Shown: positions 20,776 to 29,669 of the stretch, piece after piece
Numbering within the stretch: position 1 is the stretch's first letter
How the letters are laid out: every line of letters starts with the position of its first letter
Assembly: GCF_009663395.1 (NCBI RefSeq)
Contig: NZ_QKNW01000001.1
Location: 62,001-126,000 of the forward strand
Source: Halosegnis longus
GTDB taxonomy: Archaea; Halobacteriota; Halobacteria; Halobacteriales; Haloarculaceae
Length of the DNA: 64,000 bases
Reading direction: 5' to 3'
Notes under the pieces: generated by a model
Database searches by the model: none
What the model was told of the DNA's origin: nothing
What the model saw: only the letters and a program-made list of their open reading frames with translations
Position numbers and translations under genes: made by a program

Positions 20776-21534
20776 TTACTCCGTGTAGATGCCGTCGGGG
20801 TCGAGGTCCTCGCGGATGAGAGCAATCTCTTCCGGCGTCGGGGTCCGCGTCTCCGACACGTCGTCGGCAACGGTGAGGTCCCAGCCGGTCGCCTCCTGAA
20901 TCGCTGCTTCCGTCGAACTCGGGTGAATCGCGGCGAGATACATCTCGCCCGACTCGTCGAACCGGAGGACGCCCTTGTCGGTGATGACGGCCTCCGGCCC
21001 GCCGCGAAGCCCCAGCTCCGTGCGATTCTCTCGTCCGCCGACGTAGCCGGGACTCGTGATGAAATCCACCTCCTCGGGGAATCGCCGCTTCGTGTGTGGC
21101 GTAATCATAATGGTCCGGTGGGTGTTGCTCGCGATTTCACACGCGCCGCCACTCCCCGGCAGTCGGACGGTCGGGTCGTCGTAGTCGCCGATAACGGTGG
21201 AGTTGATGTTGCCCTCGCGGTCGATTTGTGCCCCGCCGAGAAAGCCCACGTCGATGCGTCCGGCCTGTAGATAGTTCCCGAAGCTCTGTGTCATCGGCAC
21301 GACGCTCTTGGCGTTCGACGCCAGCACGGGGTCACCGATCGACAGCGGTAGCTGTGAGGGGTTCGAGTCGATAGTTCCCGACTCGTATATCATCTCCAAC
21401 TCCGGCGCGTGGGTCCGCTTCGCCAGGTTGCAGGCGATGTTCGGGACCCCGACGCCCACGAGCGTCGTGTCGCCGTCTTCGAGTTCCTGTGCCGCGCGGG
21501 TTATCATCAGTTCGGTGTCAGTGTACGGTGGCAT
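20776..21534 (-). CDS. Family I CoA-transferase, beta subunit
   Basis: 252 aa. The CoA-transferase beta fold carries the active-site Glu in LEMIYESGTIDSNP, as in the glutaconate/3-oxoacid CoA-transferase B family. The oxyanion/CoA segment is FLGGAQIDREGNINST and the loop LPGSGGACEIASNT. It works as a heteromer with the alpha subunit encoded 1 nt upstream, moving CoA between an acyl-CoA donor and a carboxylate acceptor. Substrates cannot be assigned, although the pairing is like those used in aromatic or glutaconate breakdown. Confidence 0.88.
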   Translation of the reverse strand: MPPYTDTELMITRAAQELEDGDTTLVGVGVPNIACNLAKRTHAPELEMIYESGTIDSNPSQLPLSIGDPVLASNAKSVVPMTQSFGNYLQAGRIDVGFLGGAQIDREGNINSTVIGDYDDPTVRLPGSGGACEIASNTHRTIMITPHTKRRFPEEVDFITSPGYVGGRENRTELGLRGGPEAVITDKGVLRFDESGEMYLAAIHPSSTEAAIQEATGWDLTVADDVSETRTPTPEEIALIREDLDPDGIYTE

Positions 21535-21535
21535 C

Positions 21536-22453
21536 TCAGTACTCCCCCATGTCGATGGGCGTCGCGTAGTTGGTCGTCGGCTCCAAGTCGAGCAGTCGCT
21601 TCGGCGTCAGCTTCTCCAGATACTCGCGACGGTTGTCGACGCCGTAGACCCACTCGTCGAGCCACTCCTGTGTCCCCTCGTGGCTCTGGCTCTGCTCGTC
21701 CCACGTCAGGTACGCCTCGTTGTCACGGCCGTAGTACCCCTGCGCGTACGAGGGGTGTGAGCCGTACGGCTCCTCGACGACGTAATCGACGACCGAATCG
21801 GGGATGAACGTCCGGTTCGGGTCGGACCGAATCACGTCCTCGTCGACGATTTCCTCGACGCTCAACACGACCGTGTCGGCGGCGAAGGCCGCCTCGACGA
21901 TTTCGCCCAAAATCCCCCACAGCTGTGCGCTGCCGTCCTCGGTGGCCCGCTGTGCGCGGACGATCGCCACGTCGGGGTTGAGCGCCGGCACGACGGGAAT
22001 CTCGTCGAGGTCGCCGTCGTAGGGGTTGTCGATCAGTCGTATCGCGTCGGTGTGCTCGATGTAATCGGAGCCGACGTACGAGCGCAACGGGAGGAACGGA
22101 AGCCGTCGCGCACCGGCCTCAAGGCGGGTGACTAACCCGAAGTGCGAGTACTCCTCGAGCCCGATGGCGTGGGGTACCGCCTCCTCGACGGCGCGTCGGA
22201 ACGCGCGGAGACTTCCGACGCCGGGGTTGCCGGCCCACGAGAAAATCACGTCGTCCACGCAGCCCGCTGCGATGAGCTGGTCGTAGATGAGGTCCGGTGT
22301 CGCTCGTGCGGCCGTGAGTCCCTCGTACCCCTGCCGGATGATTTCGTGTCCCGCAGCGAAGGGTATCAGGTGGGTGAACCCGCCGAGATAGATGGTCTGG
22401 CCGTCCTCGACGGCGGCGTCGATTGCCCCCGCCATGTCCAGTTGTTTCGACAT
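21536..22453 (-). CDS. Family I CoA-transferase, alpha subunit
   Basis: 305 aa from the ATG at 22453 (MSKQLDMAGA); the longer open frame to 22534 has no family-like sequence. It contains the family glycine motif (GQTIYLGGFTHLIPFAAGHEI) and a DVIFSWAGNPGVGSLRAFRR segment, as in the glutaconate/acyl-CoA:acetate CoA-transferase A family. It is translated just ahead of the beta subunit with a one-base gap. Promoter not obvious. Forms the CoA-transferase with the beta subunit; substrate unknown. Confidence 0.87.
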   Translation of the reverse strand: MSKQLDMAGAIDAAVEDGQTIYLGGFTHLIPFAAGHEIIRQGYEGLTAARATPDLIYDQLIAAGCVDDVIFSWAGNPGVGSLRAFRRAVEEAVPHAIGLEEYSHFGLVTRLEAGARRLPFLPLRSYVGSDYIEHTDAIRLIDNPYDGDLDEIPVVPALNPDVAIVRAQRATEDGSAQLWGILGEIVEAAFAADTVVLSVEEIVDEDVIRSDPNRTFIPDSVVDYVVEEPYGSHPSYAQGYYGRDNEAYLTWDEQSQSHEGTQEWLDEWVYGVDNRREYLEKLTPKRLLDLEPTTNYATPIDMGEY

Positions 22454-22659: not shown

Positions 22660-23475
22660 ATGGACTCCTGGACCGTCTCGGGCGGTGACAACACCGATAT
22701 TCGCGTGGATGCGACGGGACCGGCAGACGCTCGCCGGGTCGTCTTCCTGCACGGCTACTCACAGAGCCGCTTGTCGTGGCGCGAGCAGTTCGACTCCCGG
22801 CTGGCCGAGTCGTATCGTCTGGTCGCCCCGGACCTTCGGGGTCACGGGCGCTCGGGAAAACCCGAGGACGCCTACGACGAGTCGGCGCTGTGGGCGGCCG
22901 ACCTAGCGGCCGTGTTCGACAGCGCCGGCGCCGACGCGCCGGTGGTGGTCGCGTGGTCCTACGGCGGGTTGGCCCTGCTCGATTACCTCGCCGAGCGTGG
23001 GACCGACAGGGTTGCCGGCATCAATCTCGTCGGGGCGGTGTCGGCGATCGGAACCGAGTCGGCGACCGAGCGGCTGGGGAGCGAGTACATCGCGCTCATG
23101 GACGGACTGACAGACACCGACGCCGAACGGAGCATCGAAGCAATCGAGGGACTCGTCCGAGTGTGTCAGGCGGAGCCGCCCTCGGAGCGGGAACTCGCGT
23201 TGATGGCCGGCTACAACGCGCTCTGTCCACCACGCGTCCGCGACGCGCTCCGGTCACGGACGGTCGACCACGAGGCGCTTGCGACCAGCGTCGACCTCCC
23301 CGTGCTCGTCACCCACGGCGCGGACGACCGAGTGGTCGACCCGGCGACCGGTGAGCTACACGCGGAGAACCCCCGCGCGCAACACAGCGTCTACCGCGGC
23401 GTCGGACACTCGCCGTTTCTCGAACGGCCGGAGCGGTTCACTCGTGAGCTGCTCGCGTTTCTCGACGACCTGTAG
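22660..23475 (+). CDS. Alpha/beta hydrolase
   Basis: 271 aa from the ATG at 22660. An in-frame ATG at 22499 exists, but the intervening ~50 residues are basic and unlike the family. The oxyanion strand is VVFLHGYSQSRLSW, the nucleophile elbow VVVAWSYGGLALL (Ser), the acid is likely the Asp in THGADDRVVDP, and the His is in YRGVGHSPFLERP. The complete catalytic triad implies an active esterase, haloperoxidase-like hydrolase or similar. It is divergent from the CoA-transferase operon, and its stop abuts the Fe-ADH fragment directly. Confidence 0.85.
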   Translation: MDSWTVSGGDNTDIRVDATGPADARRVVFLHGYSQSRLSWREQFDSRLAESYRLVAPDLRGHGRSGKPEDAYDESALWAADLAAVFDSAGADAPVVVAWSYGGLALLDYLAERGTDRVAGINLVGAVSAIGTESATERLGSEYIALMDGLTDTDAERSIEAIEGLVRVCQAEPPSERELALMAGYNALCPPRVRDALRSRTVDHEALATSVDLPVLVTHGADDRVVDPATGELHAENPRAQHSVYRGVGHSPFLERPERFTRELLAFLDDL

Positions 23476-23900
23476 CTACCACGCGTCGCGGAGCACGCCC
23501 TCGACGGCGTCGGCGTCGACCGCCACGCCCTCCGGCCGGGCGTCCATCAGGCCGTCCTCGACGATTTCCACGGCGATGCTCGGAAGCGACGCCTCGCGCA
23601 GTTCGTCGATGTCGCGCAGCCGGCTCGGGAGCCCGAGGTCGTCACGGACCGACTCGACGCCTGCGACGGCCGCCTCAGCGAGTTCGCCGTCGTCCGTGGC
23701 CTCGGTTCGTGCGCCGAACGCTCGCGCCAGCGCGGTCCGACTCCCGTCGACCTGCTCGAAGACGAATCGGAGGACGTGGGGCGCGACGACCGCGTGGATG
23801 GTCCCCTGGTGAACGTCGTAGTCGTGGGAGAAGCCGTGGCCGAACGCGTGGATGATCGAGGCCTTGTACCGGCCGGGAGTGGAGATGCCGTACTGTGCGA
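23476..23900 (-). pseudogene. Iron-type alcohol dehydrogenase, C-terminal remnant (5' part deleted)
   Basis: Minus-strand translation gives the Fe-ADH metal region YGISTPGRYKASIIHAFGHG, then SHDYDVHQGTIHAVVAPHVL, and the C-terminal helical domain to the stop at 23476. That is about 140 of the ~390 residues expected. Upstream of about 23900 the frame stays open only because it runs antisense through a glutathione-transferase-like fragment on the other strand; there is no homologous N-terminus and no start. The gene lost its NAD(P)-binding half and promoter. The junction is with the fragment at 23900-24279. Confidence 0.8.
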
Positions 23901-24279
23901 GCACGACGCCGTCGCCGACGTGTTCGACGCCCTCGACCACTGGGACGACGTGCTCGCCGACCAGCGGTATCTCGCCGATGACCGACTCACGCTCGCCGAC
24001 GTGCGCATGTTCCCGACGCTGATTCGGTTCGACGAGTGTTACCACACGGCGTTCAAGTGCAACAGGCAGTATCTCCACCAGTACGACAACCTGTGGCCGT
24101 ATCTGCGCGACCTCTACCAGACGCCGGGCGTCGCCGAGACCGTCCGCATGGAGCATATCAAAGACGACGGCTACTACCAGGGGGAGCTCACGCCGATTGG
24201 CCCACAGCTCGATTACGAGGCCGCACACGACCGAGACCGGCTTCCGACGGCAGCCGACGTGTCGTCGCAGTCGCCGTAG
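23900..24279 (+). pseudogene. ECM4/glutathionyl-hydroquinone-reductase-like transferase, C-terminal remnant (5' part deleted)
   Basis: Plus-strand reading from ~23900 gives FDALDHWDDVLADQRYLADD, LTLADVRMFPTLIRFDECYH and the ending YDNLWPYLRDLYQTPGVAET. These are the C-terminal helical domain of ECM4/Gto-type glutathione S-transferases, about 125 of ~320 residues. The thioredoxin-like N-terminal domain with its CPW-type Cys is absent. The upstream part of the open frame is antisense to the Fe-ADH remnant. Not expected to be functional. Confidence 0.8.
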
Positions 24280-24291
24280 CGCGCCGGGCGG

Positions 24292-24417
24292 CTAAATCGC
24301 GGCTCCGATGAGGAAGACGATCGCCGCGAGAACGAGCGCGCCGATGGCGACGTACGGGAGCGGAATCCCGGCCACGCTAGCGGAGGTCTCCGCCTCATCG
24401 TCCGGCGACTCAGCCAT
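24292..24417 (-). CDS. 41-aa single-helix membrane protein
   Basis: ATG at 24417, product beginning MAESPDDEAETSASVAG and then one transmembrane helix (PYVAIGALVLAAIVFLIGAA) to the stop. The acidic N-terminus before the helix is a common small haloarchaeal membrane-protein design. Convergent to the transferase remnant, with no partner gene. Function unknown. Confidence 0.5.
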   Translation of the reverse strand: MAESPDDEAETSASVAGIPLPYVAIGALVLAAIVFLIGAAI

Positions 24418-24654
24418 TCAGACTCGCGCCTCGGTCGGGACGGCGCGGTCGGCTGCGGGAAACGACGACGCGCGTGGGAGCGGTGGGACGAGCACAGTCG
24501 TAGTACGGACGCTCGGAACGTATCTCTTCTGGACGACGGGAGACGCACACCGACGGCGTCCCCAGCAACGCTTTTGATGAAATCGCTGTTGTATACCCAC
24601 GAGCGACACGGACATGAGCAAGCAACGAACTGGACGGGAGCGCTCGTGGTAGCG

Positions 24655-26655
24655 GTGCCACGCGTGAGCGTCGATGTCGGTGGCACCTTCACCGATGTCG
24701 CGCTGCTGACGGAGGCGGGGCTCGCGACCGCGAAGGTCCCGTCGACGGAAGCACAGAGCGAGGGCGTCGTAGCTGGCATCGAGAAGGCGTGCGAGCGGGC
24801 GAACATCGCCCCGAGCGATATCGAGGCGTTCACCCACGCGATGACCGTCTCGGTGAACGCGCTGTTGGAGCGAACGGGGGCCGAAACGGCCCTCGTGACG
24901 ACGGCCGGGTTTCGTGACGTGCTCGAAATCGGCCGCCAGACGCGGCCGTCGCTGTACGACCTCGACGCCGAGAAGACGCCGCCGCTCGTCCCGCGCAGGA
25001 ACCGGTTCGAAATCGCCGAACGGACGACCGTCGACGGCATCGAGGAGCCGGTCGACACGGCGGACGTACACGCGCTCGCCGACGAACTCGAGGACGCGGA
25101 GAGCGTGGCGATCTCGCTGCTTCACGCCTACAGGGACGGTGCCAACGAATCCACGGTCGCCGAGATACTCAGAGAGAGGCTGGACGTTCCGGTTTCGGTC
25201 TCACACGAGGTGTTGTCCGCCTTCCGCGAGTACGAGCGCACGTCGACGACGGTAGCCGACGCGTACGTCCGGCCGGCGATCGATTCGTATCTGGGCGAAC
25301 TCACCAGCCGAGCCGAGCGGCTCGGGATTCCGTCACCTCGGGTGATGCAGTCGAACGGCGGGATTGCCGACGCCGAGACCGTGCGAGACCACGCGGTCAC
25401 CACCGTGCTGTCGGGACCGGCGGCGGGCGTCGTCGGGGCGGCGACGAGCGCCGAGCGGTCGGTCGACCCGACCGAATTCGAGGGGTTCGTCACGTTCGAC
25501 ATGGGTGGTACCTCCAGCGACGTGAGTCTCGTCCGAGATGGGGAAATCGCCCGCACGACGGACGGTGAAGTCGGCGGCCACCCGATTGCGACACCGATGG
25601 TCGACGTGACGACGGTCGGGTCCGGCGGCGGCTCGATTGCGTGGGTCGATGCCGGCGGTGCACTCCGCGTCGGACCGGAGTCGGCCGGCGCAACCCCCGG
25701 CCCGGCCTGCTACGGGCGCGGTGGCACCGAGCCGACGGTGACCGACGCAAACCTCCTGTTGGGGTATCTCGGCGAGGACGCGACCCTCGGCGGCGAGGTG
25801 TCACTCGACGCGGACGCTGCACGCGAGGCGTTGGCATCGCTGGCCGACGAGGCGGGGCTGGATTCCGCCCGCGAGGCAGCGGCCGGCGTGTACCGAGTCG
25901 CGAACGCGAAGATGACGCGTGCGATTCGCTCCGTGACGGTGGAACGCGGCTACGACCCTCGGGAGTTCGGTCTCGTGGCCTTCGGTGGGGCCGGCCCGAT
26001 GCACGCGACCGCACTCGCCGAACGCCTCGACATCGACTGCGTCGTCGTGCCGCTCGCAGGCGGTGTCCTATCCGCGTACGGGCTGCTCGGCGCAGACGAA
26101 CAACACGACGCCGTACGGACCCATCGGACCGGACTCGCCGAAACGGAGCCCGGTGAGCTGGAAGCGGTGTACGATGACCTCACCGAAGACGCCCGCGGTC
26201 AGAGCACGCTCGGCTCCGAGCAGCACGTCGAGCGGACGGCTGACCTCCGGTACGCCGGACAGAGCTTCGAACTGGAGGTCGGGGTGGACGACCCGCTCTC
26301 AATCGAGGCGATGCGGGACCGGTTCCACACGGCCCACGAGCGCGCATACGGGTACCAGATGGACGAGCAGGTCGAACTCGTCACGCTCCGCGTCGCTGCG
26401 AGCGTCGAAAACGACGTTCCTCCGACTAGCTACACGGGTGGCGATGACACGCCGGTACGGAACCGATACGGCGTGTTCGACGGGAGCCGCCGGACGATAC
26501 CGGTGTACGTCCGGGAGAGCCTCGCTCCGGACGAGAGAATCGACGGACCAGCGGTCGTCGAGGACGACGAGAGCACCGTCGTCGTCCGCCCGAGCTGGAC
26601 CGGTACCGTCCGCCCGGACGGAACGCTGGTGTTGAATCGGGGTGAGCAGGCGTGA
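24655..26655 (+). CDS. hyuA: Hydantoinase/oxoprolinase subunit A
   Basis: 666 aa from the GTG at 24655 (VPRVSVDVGGTFTDVALL); a GTG at 24664 is also possible. Sequence upstream of this in the same frame is not family-like. It has the ATP-binding ASKHA phosphate-1 motif DVGGTFTD, a second glycine motif in FVTFDMGGTSSDVSLV, and the GGAGPMHATALAE segment. HyuA/HyuB-type enzymes open hydantoin or 5-oxoproline rings using ATP. Its stop overlaps hyuB by 4 nt. A 12-codon ATG ORF (24614-24652) ends two bases before this start. Exact substrate (5-oxoproline, hydantoin or N-methylhydantoin) undetermined. Confidence 0.88.
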   Translation: MPRVSVDVGGTFTDVALLTEAGLATAKVPSTEAQSEGVVAGIEKACERANIAPSDIEAFTHAMTVSVNALLERTGAETALVTTAGFRDVLEIGRQTRPSLYDLDAEKTPPLVPRRNRFEIAERTTVDGIEEPVDTADVHALADELEDAESVAISLLHAYRDGANESTVAEILRERLDVPVSVSHEVLSAFREYERTSTTVADAYVRPAIDSYLGELTSRAERLGIPSPRVMQSNGGIADAETVRDHAVTTVLSGPAAGVVGAATSAERSVDPTEFEGFVTFDMGGTSSDVSLVRDGEIARTTDGEVGGHPIATPMVDVTTVGSGGGSIAWVDAGGALRVGPESAGATPGPACYGRGGTEPTVTDANLLLGYLGEDATLGGEVSLDADAAREALASLADEAGLDSAREAAAGVYRVANAKMTRAIRSVTVERGYDPREFGLVAFGGAGPMHATALAERLDIDCVVVPLAGGVLSAYGLLGADEQHDAVRTHRTGLAETEPGELEAVYDDLTEDARGQSTLGSEQHVERTADLRYAGQSFELEVGVDDPLSIEAMRDRFHTAHERAYGYQMDEQVELVTLRVAASVENDVPPTSYTGGDDTPVRNRYGVFDGSRRTIPVYVRESLAPDERIDGPAVVEDDESTVVVRPSWTGTVRPDGTLVLNRGEQA

Positions 26656-28262
26656 GTCTCGACGCGGTCTCGCTCGAAGTGCTCCGCCACCAGCTGTCGG
26701 GCATCGCCGAGGAGATGGGCCACGTCCTGATTCACGGCGCGTACTCTCCGAACATCAAGGAGCGACAGGACTGCTCGACTGCCCTCTTCGATGCTGAGGG
26801 ACGGATGGTCGCACAGGCGGAGCATATCCCCGTCCATCTCGGAGCGATGCCGGAGGCCGTCGAGACCGTGATGGCTCGCGACCCCCAGCCCGGCGATGCA
26901 TACGTGCTCAACGACCCGTTCGACGGCGGGACACACCTCCCGGACGTGACGATTGTTGCGCCCCTCGTCGTCGAGGGAGAGATCCTCGGATACGGGGTCA
27001 CGCGCGCCCACCACGGCGATATCGGAGGAATGACTCCCGGCAGTATGCCCGCCGGTGCGACGGAAATCTATCAGGAGGGGCTTCGGCTGCCCGCAGTCAG
27101 GCTCGTGGAGAACGGCACCCTCGACGAGGACGTGGTGTCGCTCGTCCTCGCGAACGTTCGCAACCCCGACGAGCGGCGGGCCGACCTGCGGGCACAGTTG
27201 GCGGCCAACGACCGCGCGAACGAGCGGATCGCCGAGTTGGTCGAGAGCCACGGTCGCGAGCGAATTCTCGATGCGTTCGACGCGGTCATCGACTACTCCC
27301 GCGAGCGCACCGAGAACGAAATCGCGACGATTCCCGACGGGACCTACGAGGCGCGCGACGTGCTCGAAGGGGACGGCGTCACCGACGAGCCGATTCCGAT
27401 CGCGGTGACCGTCACGGTCGACGGGGAGACGGTCGCGGTTGATTTCGACGGGACCGCCGACCAGGTGGACGGCAACATGAACGCGCCGTTGTCAGTCGCG
27501 AAGAGCGCAGTCTACTTCGTCGTTCGTGCGGTGACCGACCCGGACATCCCACCCACGGACGGCTGTTACCAGCCGGTCACGGTGCGTGCGCCGGCAGGGT
27601 CGTTGCTCAACCCGACACAGCCAGCCGCTGTCGTCGGTGGAAACGTCGAGACGAGCCAGCGTGTCACGGATGTCGTGCTGGCCGCCTTCGCCGAGGCGCT
27701 CCCCGAGGAGATACCGGCACAGGGGCAGGGAACGATGAACAACCTCATCATCGGTGGTCGCACCGAGACCGACTTCACGTACTACGAGACGATTGCTGGT
27801 GGCTTCGGCGGGCGACCGGCCCGCGACGGCATGGACGGCGTGCAAGTCGGCATGACGAATACGCTCAACACACCGATTGAGGCGCTTGAAGCGGAGTATC
27901 CGCTGCGCGTCGAATCCTACACGCTTCGTCCAAACAGTGGTGGCGATGGCCGCTACCGTGGTGGGCTCGGACTCGTCCGGTCGGTGACCGTCGAAGCGGA
28001 TGCGACCGTCTCGCTACTCACCGAGCGCCGGCAGGTCTCCCCGGCAGGGACGCGCGGCGGCAACGACGGGACGACGGGCGAGAATTACATCGACGGCCAG
28101 AGAGTGCCCGCAAAGACGACCGAGACGGTTTCGGCGGGAACGACGGTGACGGTGAAGACGCCCGGCGGGGGCGGCTACGGCGACCCTGACGAGCGAGCAG
28201 CCGAAGCCCGAGCGAACGACCGCCGGGACGAGAAGACGGGAGCCGATGCCGACGACACCTGA
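26652..28262 (+). CDS. hyuB: Hydantoinase/oxoprolinase subunit B
   Basis: 536 aa, GTG start overlapping the hyuA stop (GTGA). Family B signature runs throughout: SLEVLRHQLSGIAEEMGHVL, DCSTALFDAEGRMVAQAEHI, a metal-site-like DPFDGGTHLPDVT, RAHHGDIGGMTPGSMP and ending GGGGYGDPDERA. It is the second half of the ATP-dependent ring-opening complex. The following gene is an amidase, so the region may handle cyclic amides and the amides derived from them, but this link is inferred from position only. Confidence 0.9.
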   Translation: MSLDAVSLEVLRHQLSGIAEEMGHVLIHGAYSPNIKERQDCSTALFDAEGRMVAQAEHIPVHLGAMPEAVETVMARDPQPGDAYVLNDPFDGGTHLPDVTIVAPLVVEGEILGYGVTRAHHGDIGGMTPGSMPAGATEIYQEGLRLPAVRLVENGTLDEDVVSLVLANVRNPDERRADLRAQLAANDRANERIAELVESHGRERILDAFDAVIDYSRERTENEIATIPDGTYEARDVLEGDGVTDEPIPIAVTVTVDGETVAVDFDGTADQVDGNMNAPLSVAKSAVYFVVRAVTDPDIPPTDGCYQPVTVRAPAGSLLNPTQPAAVVGGNVETSQRVTDVVLAAFAEALPEEIPAQGQGTMNNLIIGGRTETDFTYYETIAGGFGGRPARDGMDGVQVGMTNTLNTPIEALEAEYPLRVESYTLRPNSGGDGRYRGGLGLVRSVTVEADATVSLLTERRQVSPAGTRGGNDGTTGENYIDGQRVPAKTTETVSAGTTVTVKTPGGGGYGDPDERAAEARANDRRDEKTGADADDT

Positions 28263-28364: not shown

Positions 28365-29669
28365 ATGTCTCAACAGGTTCAGGAGGAGTTAGACGTCGAC
28401 GTGTTCACGCTGGGACTGGTCGGTCCCGAGCAGGAGTGGGCTGGCACGGTCGCCGACGGAGGCACGGTCCGCACCCACACGCCGCCGGCCTGCTGGGGGC
28501 CGATGATTACGCCGGAGTTCCGCGGCGGCCACGAGGTGACCCGGCCGATTCGCGTCGAGAACGCCGAGCCCGGCGACGCGCTCGTGGTCGAAATCAACGA
28601 CGTGGAGGTGACGAGTCTCGCGACCTCGACGGGGAGCATGGCCGAACGCGAGGGTGCCTTCGGCGACGACCCGTTCGTCGACCACGTCTGTCCGGAGTGT
28701 GGCACCGAGTGGCCCGACAGCATCGTCGAGGGGACGGGCGAGGAGTCGATTCGGTGCGCGGAGTGTGGCGCGAACGCCTCCTCGTTCGGCTTCGAGTACG
28801 GCTACACGGTGGCGTTCGACGACGACCACACGGTCGGCGTGACGGTCGGGCGCGACGGCGCGGATATGCTCGCCGACGACGCCCACGAGGCGATGCAGCT
28901 CCCGGACAACTCGCGTCAACATCCGATTTTGCTCTACGGTCCCGACGAGATGCCGGGGGCACTCGGTCGGCTGCGGCCGTTCATCGGCAACATCGGCACG
29001 ACGCCGGGCGAGGAGTATCCCGACTCGCACAACGCCGGCGACTTCGGCCAGTTCCTCATCGGTGCCGAACACGACTGGGGCGTCGAGGACGAGGCGGCCC
29101 TGGAGTCGCGAACGGACGGCCACATGGACTCGAACGACGTGCGCGCCGGGGCGACGCTCATCTGTCCGGTGCGCATCGAGGGCGGCGGGCTGTACGTCGG
29201 TGACCTCCACGCCAATCAGGGCGACGGCGAACTCTCTCTGCACACGACGGACGTGAGCGGGAAGACGGAACTGGAGGTCTCCGTCGTCAAGGACGTGAAT
29301 CTCGACGGTCCGCTGCTGTTGCCGAACGAGGAGGACCTCCCGCACATCGCGAAGCCGTACACCGACGCCGAGCGCGAGGCCGGAGCGGCTGTCGCCGACG
29401 AGTACGACGTCGACGAGCTTGCCGACGCCGCACCGGTCCAGTTCATCGGCTCCGGCGCGACGATTAACGAAGCCACCGAGAACGCCTTCGACCGGGCCGG
29501 GAACCTCCTCGGGATGACCGAAGGCGAGGTGCGCGGCCGCTGTACGTTCACCGGCGGCGTCGAGGTTGCACGCCTGCCGGGAGTCGTCCAGCTATCCATG
29601 CTCGTCCCGATGGACCTGCTCGAGGAGACGGGGCTGGCCGAGACTGTCCGGGCGACGTACGACCTGTAA
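28365..29669 (+). CDS. Acetamidase/formamidase family protein with zinc-ribbon insert
   Basis: 434 aa. The FmdA/AmdA fold has RTHTPPACWGPMITPEF near the N-terminus and the core LYVGDLHANQGDGELS, then TFTGGVEVARLPGVVQLSML at the C-terminus. Between residues ~105 and 145 there is an inserted CPECG...CAECG zinc ribbon not usual in the bacterial enzymes. A TATA-like GGTTAAGC about 30 bp upstream fits a leaderless start. It would hydrolyse a short-chain amide such as formamide to acid and ammonia. It follows hyuAB but has its own promoter. Confidence 0.85.
   Translation: MSQQVQEELDVDVFTLGLVGPEQEWAGTVADGGTVRTHTPPACWGPMITPEFRGGHEVTRPIRVENAEPGDALVVEINDVEVTSLATSTGSMAEREGAFGDDPFVDHVCPECGTEWPDSIVEGTGEESIRCAECGANASSFGFEYGYTVAFDDDHTVGVTVGRDGADMLADDAHEAMQLPDNSRQHPILLYGPDEMPGALGRLRPFIGNIGTTPGEEYPDSHNAGDFGQFLIGAEHDWGVEDEAALESRTDGHMDSNDVRAGATLICPVRIEGGGLYVGDLHANQGDGELSLHTTDVSGKTELEVSVVKDVNLDGPLLLPNEEDLPHIAKPYTDAEREAGAAVADEYDVDELADAAPVQFIGSGATINEATENAFDRAGNLLGMTEGEVRGRCTFTGGVEVARLPGVVQLSMLVPMDLLEETGLAETVRATYDL

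Follow-up and report, generated by a model that had tools for sequence, protein, structure and literature searches.

A probable deletion scar joins the remnants of two unrelated genes in the haloarchaeon Halosegnis longus

How did the C-terminal parts of two unrelated enzymes come to meet, in opposite orientation, at a single point of a Halosegnis longus chromosome? In the 64,000-nucleotide stretch of DNA that we analyzed (the window), the minus strand carries the remnant of an iron-containing alcohol dehydrogenase (Fe-ADH, positions 23476-23913). This remnant retains the C-terminal 145 codons and the stop, and about 264 N-terminal codons are gone, which amounts to the whole nucleotide-binding domain. 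The plus strand carries the remnant of a Xi-class (ECM4-type) GST, or glutathionyl-hydroquinone reductase (23905-24279), which retains the C-terminal 124 codons and the stop. About 210 N-terminal codons are missing from it, the thioredoxin-like domain among them. Open reading frames, Pfam domains and DNA matches confirm the proposal of an earlier note that a minus-strand Fe-ADH C-terminus meets a plus-strand ECM4-type C-terminus here and that both N-termini are gone. That note described both remnants as halves, which is too generous for Fe-ADH, where 145 of 409 codons (35%) are kept and about 65% lost; the GST gene keeps about a third.

The Fe-ADH stump shares 60% amino acid identity with residues 265-409 of an intact, 409-residue homologue in another genome of the genus (G004). 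The GST stump shares 79-90% amino acid identity and 79-85% DNA identity with ten intact relatives taken among the matches listed. Both frames stay open by antisense reading, which may invite false annotation, as the earlier note expected. An artefactual minus-strand ORF of 250 amino acids (23476-24228) combines the Fe-ADH tail with the antisense of the GST remnant, an artefactual plus-strand ORF of 167 amino acids (23776-24279) combines the GST tail with the antisense of the Fe-ADH remnant, and the two overlap by 453 bp. Pfam finds only ADH_Fe_C in the minus-strand ORF, as a partial match (profile positions 69-183 of 194), and only GST C-terminal domains (GST_C) in the plus-strand ORF. Intact relatives add the respective N-terminal domains (Pfam Fe-ADH and GST_N_2), and the G004 Fe-ADH homologue has both of its domains. 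A functional iron-containing alcohol dehydrogenase comprises an N-terminal nucleotide-binding domain and a C-terminal domain, and a functional Xi-class GST an N-terminal thioredoxin-like domain and an alpha-helical C-domain. Judged by domain content, catalysis by either stump is excluded, since the nucleotide-binding domain is missing from the Fe-ADH and the thioredoxin-like domain from the GST.

We compared the codons at the junction with those of 15 intact Fe-ADHs from other genomes and the genome’s own intact paralogue (16 loci), and with those of eight GST loci, the eighth of which is the genome’s own intact paralogue and represents a different GST type. The sequence can be read as Fe-ADH up to 23910, or up to 23913 on the assumption that the vanished ancestor encoded Asp at that point, like G004. 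It can be read as GST from 23908 onwards, or already from 23905 when a single third-position mismatch is set aside (GAC in the window, GAG or GAA in all seven GST-type loci compared). The breakpoint therefore lies within 23905-23913, close to the ‘about 23900’ of the earlier note, and the two parents would share 3-9 bp there, depending on the ancestral codons. These nine positions read GACGCCGTC, and no finer placement of the breakpoint is possible at codon level. Among the matches listed, the best-matching Fe-ADH DNA matches end at 23910-23917 (G327 alone reaches 23935, and weaker ones end earlier), and GST DNA matches mostly begin at 23903 or a few bases later. Each gene matches its intact relatives up to one common point and not past it, as in a gene pair cut by a deletion.

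The earlier note also suggested that microhomology had driven the joining. The junction sequence allows this, and end-joining with 3-9 bp of microhomology is a possible origin of the junction, which lies within GACGCCGTCGCC at 23905-23916. The 9-mer GACGCCGTC is found at 13 places in the window, where 6.5 would be expected, so its presence at the junction is weak evidence that proves nothing alone.

The missing 5' parts were lost, not moved. We searched the genome with the N-terminal 264 amino acids of the G004 Fe-ADH and found an intact paralogue elsewhere (51% identity) and one weak match (24%). The N-terminal 210 amino acids of an intact GST from G024 likewise found an intact paralogue at another locus (64% identity). 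Neither search returned an orphan N-terminal half of Fe-ADH or GST, and we reject translocation of the 5' halves, since they are absent from the genome save for the intact paralogues at other loci. With both genes truncated at a single precise junction and their 5' parts gone, a deletion is the simplest cause.

Both stumps are free of internal stops. Eight of the ten relatives of the GST stump, the closest included, align to it without gaps, and the remaining ones differ by one to three small gaps. Four of the nine relatives compared with the Fe-ADH stump, again including the closest, align without gaps, and the others differ by 1-3 small gaps. Substitutions in the GST stump are concentrated at third positions, like those in intact pairs. 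Three-way tests for relaxed selection gave Fisher p values of 0.30, 0.75 and 1.0 for the GST stump, and of 0.081, 0.84, 0.002 and 0.72 for the Fe-ADH stump over four reference pairs. The comparisons hold no consistent signal, and we do not claim relaxed selection on either stump. The lack of stops, the lack of gaps against the closest relatives and the mostly intact-like substitution patterns suggest that the loss was probably recent on the scale of these comparisons. Both stumps are undergoing passive loss, and the intact paralogues elsewhere in the genome are distantly similar.

The neighbourhoods of intact relatives bear on what the deletion removed. The GST stump represents a second, patchily distributed type of Xi-class GST. 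We identified ten loci of this type, at least seven from a search of the order (392 genomes) and three from a search of the family (146 genomes; G413, G401 and G407), requiring at least 81% identity and a match that reaches the 3' end region of the stump. One partial match covering part of the stump (G069, 85%) and two matches that end earlier, like many of the order-search matches (G425 and G154, 81-82%), were excluded, and their neighbourhoods were not fetched. Among the matches listed, three of the ten loci (G271, G357 and G413, all in the window’s family) encode an SDR directly upstream of the GST on the same strand. This SDR has 239 amino acids, and its stop lies 54 to 89 bp ahead of the start of the GST match. 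The other seven loci have varied neighbours, and the family members G401 and G407 have no adjacent SDR. No Fe-ADH was found near the GST at any of the ten loci (tblastn at 1e-3, flanks of about 4-9 kb, among the matches listed) or at any of the 14 GST loci fetched, which represent 12 distinct places, ten of them of this GST type. The window’s own genome holds no SDR copy closer than 36%.

A sister species, G002, retains relics of the same genes at the same site. DNA identity around the locus is 87-93% (about 90% outside the gap), and the region upstream of the CoA-transferase and a small membrane gene align to the window; between them lie about 290 bp in G002 versus about 1,700 in the window. 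This gap (L024:7875-8165) contains first an SDR tail and then a decayed GST trace. The SDR relic corresponds to residues 187-239 with nine residues missing, and it matches the G271 SDR at 91% DNA identity over 110 bp, followed by a stop. The GST relic corresponds to the last 17 or so codons and has a local score of 24, against a shuffle mean of 12 (sd 1.8, largest 18; 0 of 300 shuffles reach it), so we reject extension noise as its origin. We also reject G002 as an empty site that predates an insertion, because its gap contains both relics. No trace of the abhydrolase or Fe-ADH was found in the gap (the observed scores were equalled or exceeded by 36 of 60 shuffles on one strand and 50 of 60 on the other). 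Since an SDR tail is followed by a GST trace in G002, an SDR-GST tandem was most likely present at this locus when the window species and G002 diverged, with the SDR immediately upstream of the GST. G002 itself shows its own, different erosion of the locus.

Beside the remnants, an intact alpha/beta hydrolase (22660-23475, plus strand) is convergent with the Fe-ADH remnant, and their stop codons abut, as they do in G004. An intact CoA-transferase subunit pair (20776-22453, minus strand) forms the left anchor of the locus in both G002 and G004. The right anchor encodes a predicted single-span membrane protein of 41 amino acids (24292-24417, minus strand), whose span was recognized by eye in the sequence and which shares 80% amino acid identity with its counterpart in G002. 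This gene falls below usual ORF cut-offs, and annotation may miss it. Between the 41-residue gene and an acetamidase-like gene (28365-29669) lies a hydantoinase/caprolactamase-like A/B pair (24574-28262) that is absent from the same site in G002 (L024:8422-8608) and occurs, at 69-72% similarity, at other places in G003, G004 and G005.

The arrangement closest to that of the window is found in G004, where a CoA-transferase pair is followed by Fe-ADH and the abhydrolase, the last two convergent. That G004 has this pair, its stop codons abutting, beside the same CoA-transferase supports a deletion reading of the window locus. Relative to the CoA-transferase, the abhydrolase/Fe-ADH pair has opposite orientations in G004 (L025:5868-7916) and in the window (22660-23913), which indicates that at least one rearrangement happened within the genus. 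We fetched 20 of the 32 other places in the order where the abhydrolase was found. At three of these (G265, G325 and G183, which belong to three families), the abhydrolase follows the CoA-transferase and lies on the plus strand, so the window orientation of the abhydrolase/Fe-ADH pair need not be derived and may be ancestral. Three others (G239, G222 and G395) have the abhydrolase and Fe-ADH in tandem. No GST or SDR was found near Fe-ADH at any of 21 fetched loci (20 distinct places, with the own paralogue counted twice; flanks mostly 5-8 kb, shorter at L028, L067 and L076). A named genome collection yielded a single match to the Fe-ADH stump (Halorubrum alkaliphilum, 58% identity) and no genome with both genes together.

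In two distant genomes (L069 and L075), VOC and SDR genes flank the CoA-transferase pair, and the abhydrolase follows. This order suggests a conserved catabolic cluster. For the cluster of the window, a maleylacetate/3-oxoadipate branch, with the Fe-ADH as a maleylacetate reductase and the abhydrolase as an enol-lactonase, may serve as a lead. We did not adopt it as a name, as NCBIfam matches all fall far below cut-off; a literature search for maleylacetate reductase in haloarchaea returned a single entry, on Thermoplasmata.

We favor, with a probability of roughly 0.6, a reading of the locus as a deletion scar that leaves two pseudogenes, in which the ancestor had an SDR gene between Fe-ADH and GST and a single deletion occurred. 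The ancestral order would have been CoA-transferase (minus), abhydrolase (plus), Fe-ADH (minus, convergent with the abhydrolase), SDR (plus), Xi-class GST (plus) and the small membrane gene (minus, convergent with the GST). In the window lineage, one deletion would have begun near codon 265 of Fe-ADH, crossed the Fe-ADH promoter region and the entire SDR, and ended near codon 210 of the GST. The ends would have been sealed at GACGCCGTC, and end-joining with 3-9 bp of common sequence is the probable mechanism. Such a deletion would have removed about 2.2 kb (about 792 bp of Fe-ADH, 720 bp of SDR, an approximately 85 bp spacer and about 636 bp of GST) plus the spacer between Fe-ADH and SDR. Separate deletions in the G002 lineage would have left the SDR tail and the GST trace. 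We infer that Fe-ADH and the SDR-GST pair were adjacent before the event, that the event was single and that end-joining was its maker. Several observations count against this history: Fe-ADH stands beside SDR-GST in no genome searched (among the matches listed), the G002 gap holds no abhydrolase or Fe-ADH trace, G004 has the abhydrolase/Fe-ADH pair the other way round, and the SDR is adjacent at just three of the ten GST-type loci. The undeleted ancestor was not found among 39 relatives, six genomes of the genus, 392 of the order and 146 of the family (DNA searches of overlapping sets, among the matches listed). The order was sampled at 392 genomes, and absence from this sample is compatible with existence elsewhere.

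The earlier note envisaged a simpler ancestor, with Fe-ADH and GST adjacent and divergent around a common promoter and one deletion of 1.5-2 kb that took both 5' parts. Such a history would account for the present orientation of the stumps, the one sharp junction with possible microhomology and the disappearance of both 5' parts from the genome. We regard it as unlikely, since Fe-ADH and GST do not occur together at any of the Fe-ADH or GST loci described above, and the position upstream of the GST is taken by a same-strand SDR in three relatives and by its relic at this very site in G002. The deletion of both 5' parts is thus supported, and the proposed size and the single divergent promoter are not, given a probable loss of about 2.2 kb plus a spacer that affected three genes. 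DNA searches of the genus, family and order returned, among the matches listed, no relative with the intact divergent pair that the note had recommended seeking. The two genes are not head to head in any relative found, which the note had counted as evidence against itself, but no relative keeps the whole locus. A head-to-head deletion would be a special case of the favored history, one without the SDR, and no relative speaks for it.

Quite unlikely is an inversion between GACGGCGTC in Fe-ADH and GACGCCGTC in GST. Here, Fe-ADH would have been a plus-strand neighbour of the CoA-transferase, the arrangement seen in G004, so that the two sequences formed inverted repeats. An inversion between them would have given exactly this junction and flipped the abhydrolase as well, and the reciprocal junction would have been lost later. 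The inversion of the abhydrolase/Fe-ADH pair between G004 and the window and the short common sequence at the junction are consistent with such an event. However, a second deletion is then needed, as the reciprocal N-terminal junction is found nowhere in the genome, and the CoA-transferase-abhydrolase(+) order of three of the 20 fetched loci suggests that the window orientation may be ancestral.

Several successive deletions, in which Fe-ADH and GST each lost their 5' part in an event of its own before a final deletion brought the stumps together, are very unlikely. Nested or successive deletions would leave an identical final junction, and G002 shows that the locus can take more than one deletion, but one recent event would leave stumps without further stops and, in comparison with the closest relatives, without small gaps, and this is what we see. 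Judging from the assembled sequence, an artefact, by joining of unrelated stretches or collapse of a repeat, is highly unlikely: the junction is internal to a contig of 2.45 Mb, in an assembly of three contigs (2.77 Mb) that is 99.85% complete, the shared sequence of at most about 12 bp is too short for repeat collapse, and G002 carries both anchors on one contig.

The favored single deletion resembles described processes in haloarchaea. A curation study describes genes disrupted by larger deletions or rearrangements as a class in haloarchaeal genomes, and spurious ORFs in high-GC haloarchaea (PMC4500146). Like members of that class, the window genes are cut at one end by a deletion, with stumps in place and spurious frames that gene finders may call. 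Unlike the class as outlined there, two unrelated genes in opposite orientation are truncated by one junction; there is otherwise no departure. Haloferax volcanii mends cut plasmids through microhomology-mediated end-joining that does not depend on Ku, with 3-5 bp at the ends and deletions spanning 6-977 bp (PMC2700283). The 3-9 bp that the window junction allows lie within or just above this published range. Unlike those plasmid deletions, the deletion proposed here would be chromosomal and larger (about 2.2 kb plus spacer). Strong CRISPR self-targeting is also described as giving microhomology-mediated deletions (PMC7521656). The intact G024 GST matches the solved structure of the Natrialba magadii Xi-class GST/glutathionyl-hydroquinone reductase over nearly its full length (PDB 6gzf, E 1.5e-124), and the window copy, unlike this enzyme, lacks the N-terminal thioredoxin-like domain (PMC6345682).

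The locus is best explained as an ordinary deletion-type pseudogene pair, a product of ordinary gene decay and an instance of described classes. For annotation, the two overlapping, partly antisense ORFs should be flagged as pseudogenes. The locus shows that two adjoining stumps do not attest to an earlier adjacency of the complete genes. It offers a small, well-bounded case of haloarchaeal gene loss in which a sister species retains relics of this cluster. We tentatively suggest, at somewhat less than even odds, that the same cluster (CoA-transferase, abhydrolase, Fe-ADH, SDR and Xi-GST) was dismantled independently by different deletions in the two sister species. If so, genes would have been lost here in parallel after the pathway had become dispensable to both species, or the site would be a local hotspot of deletion.
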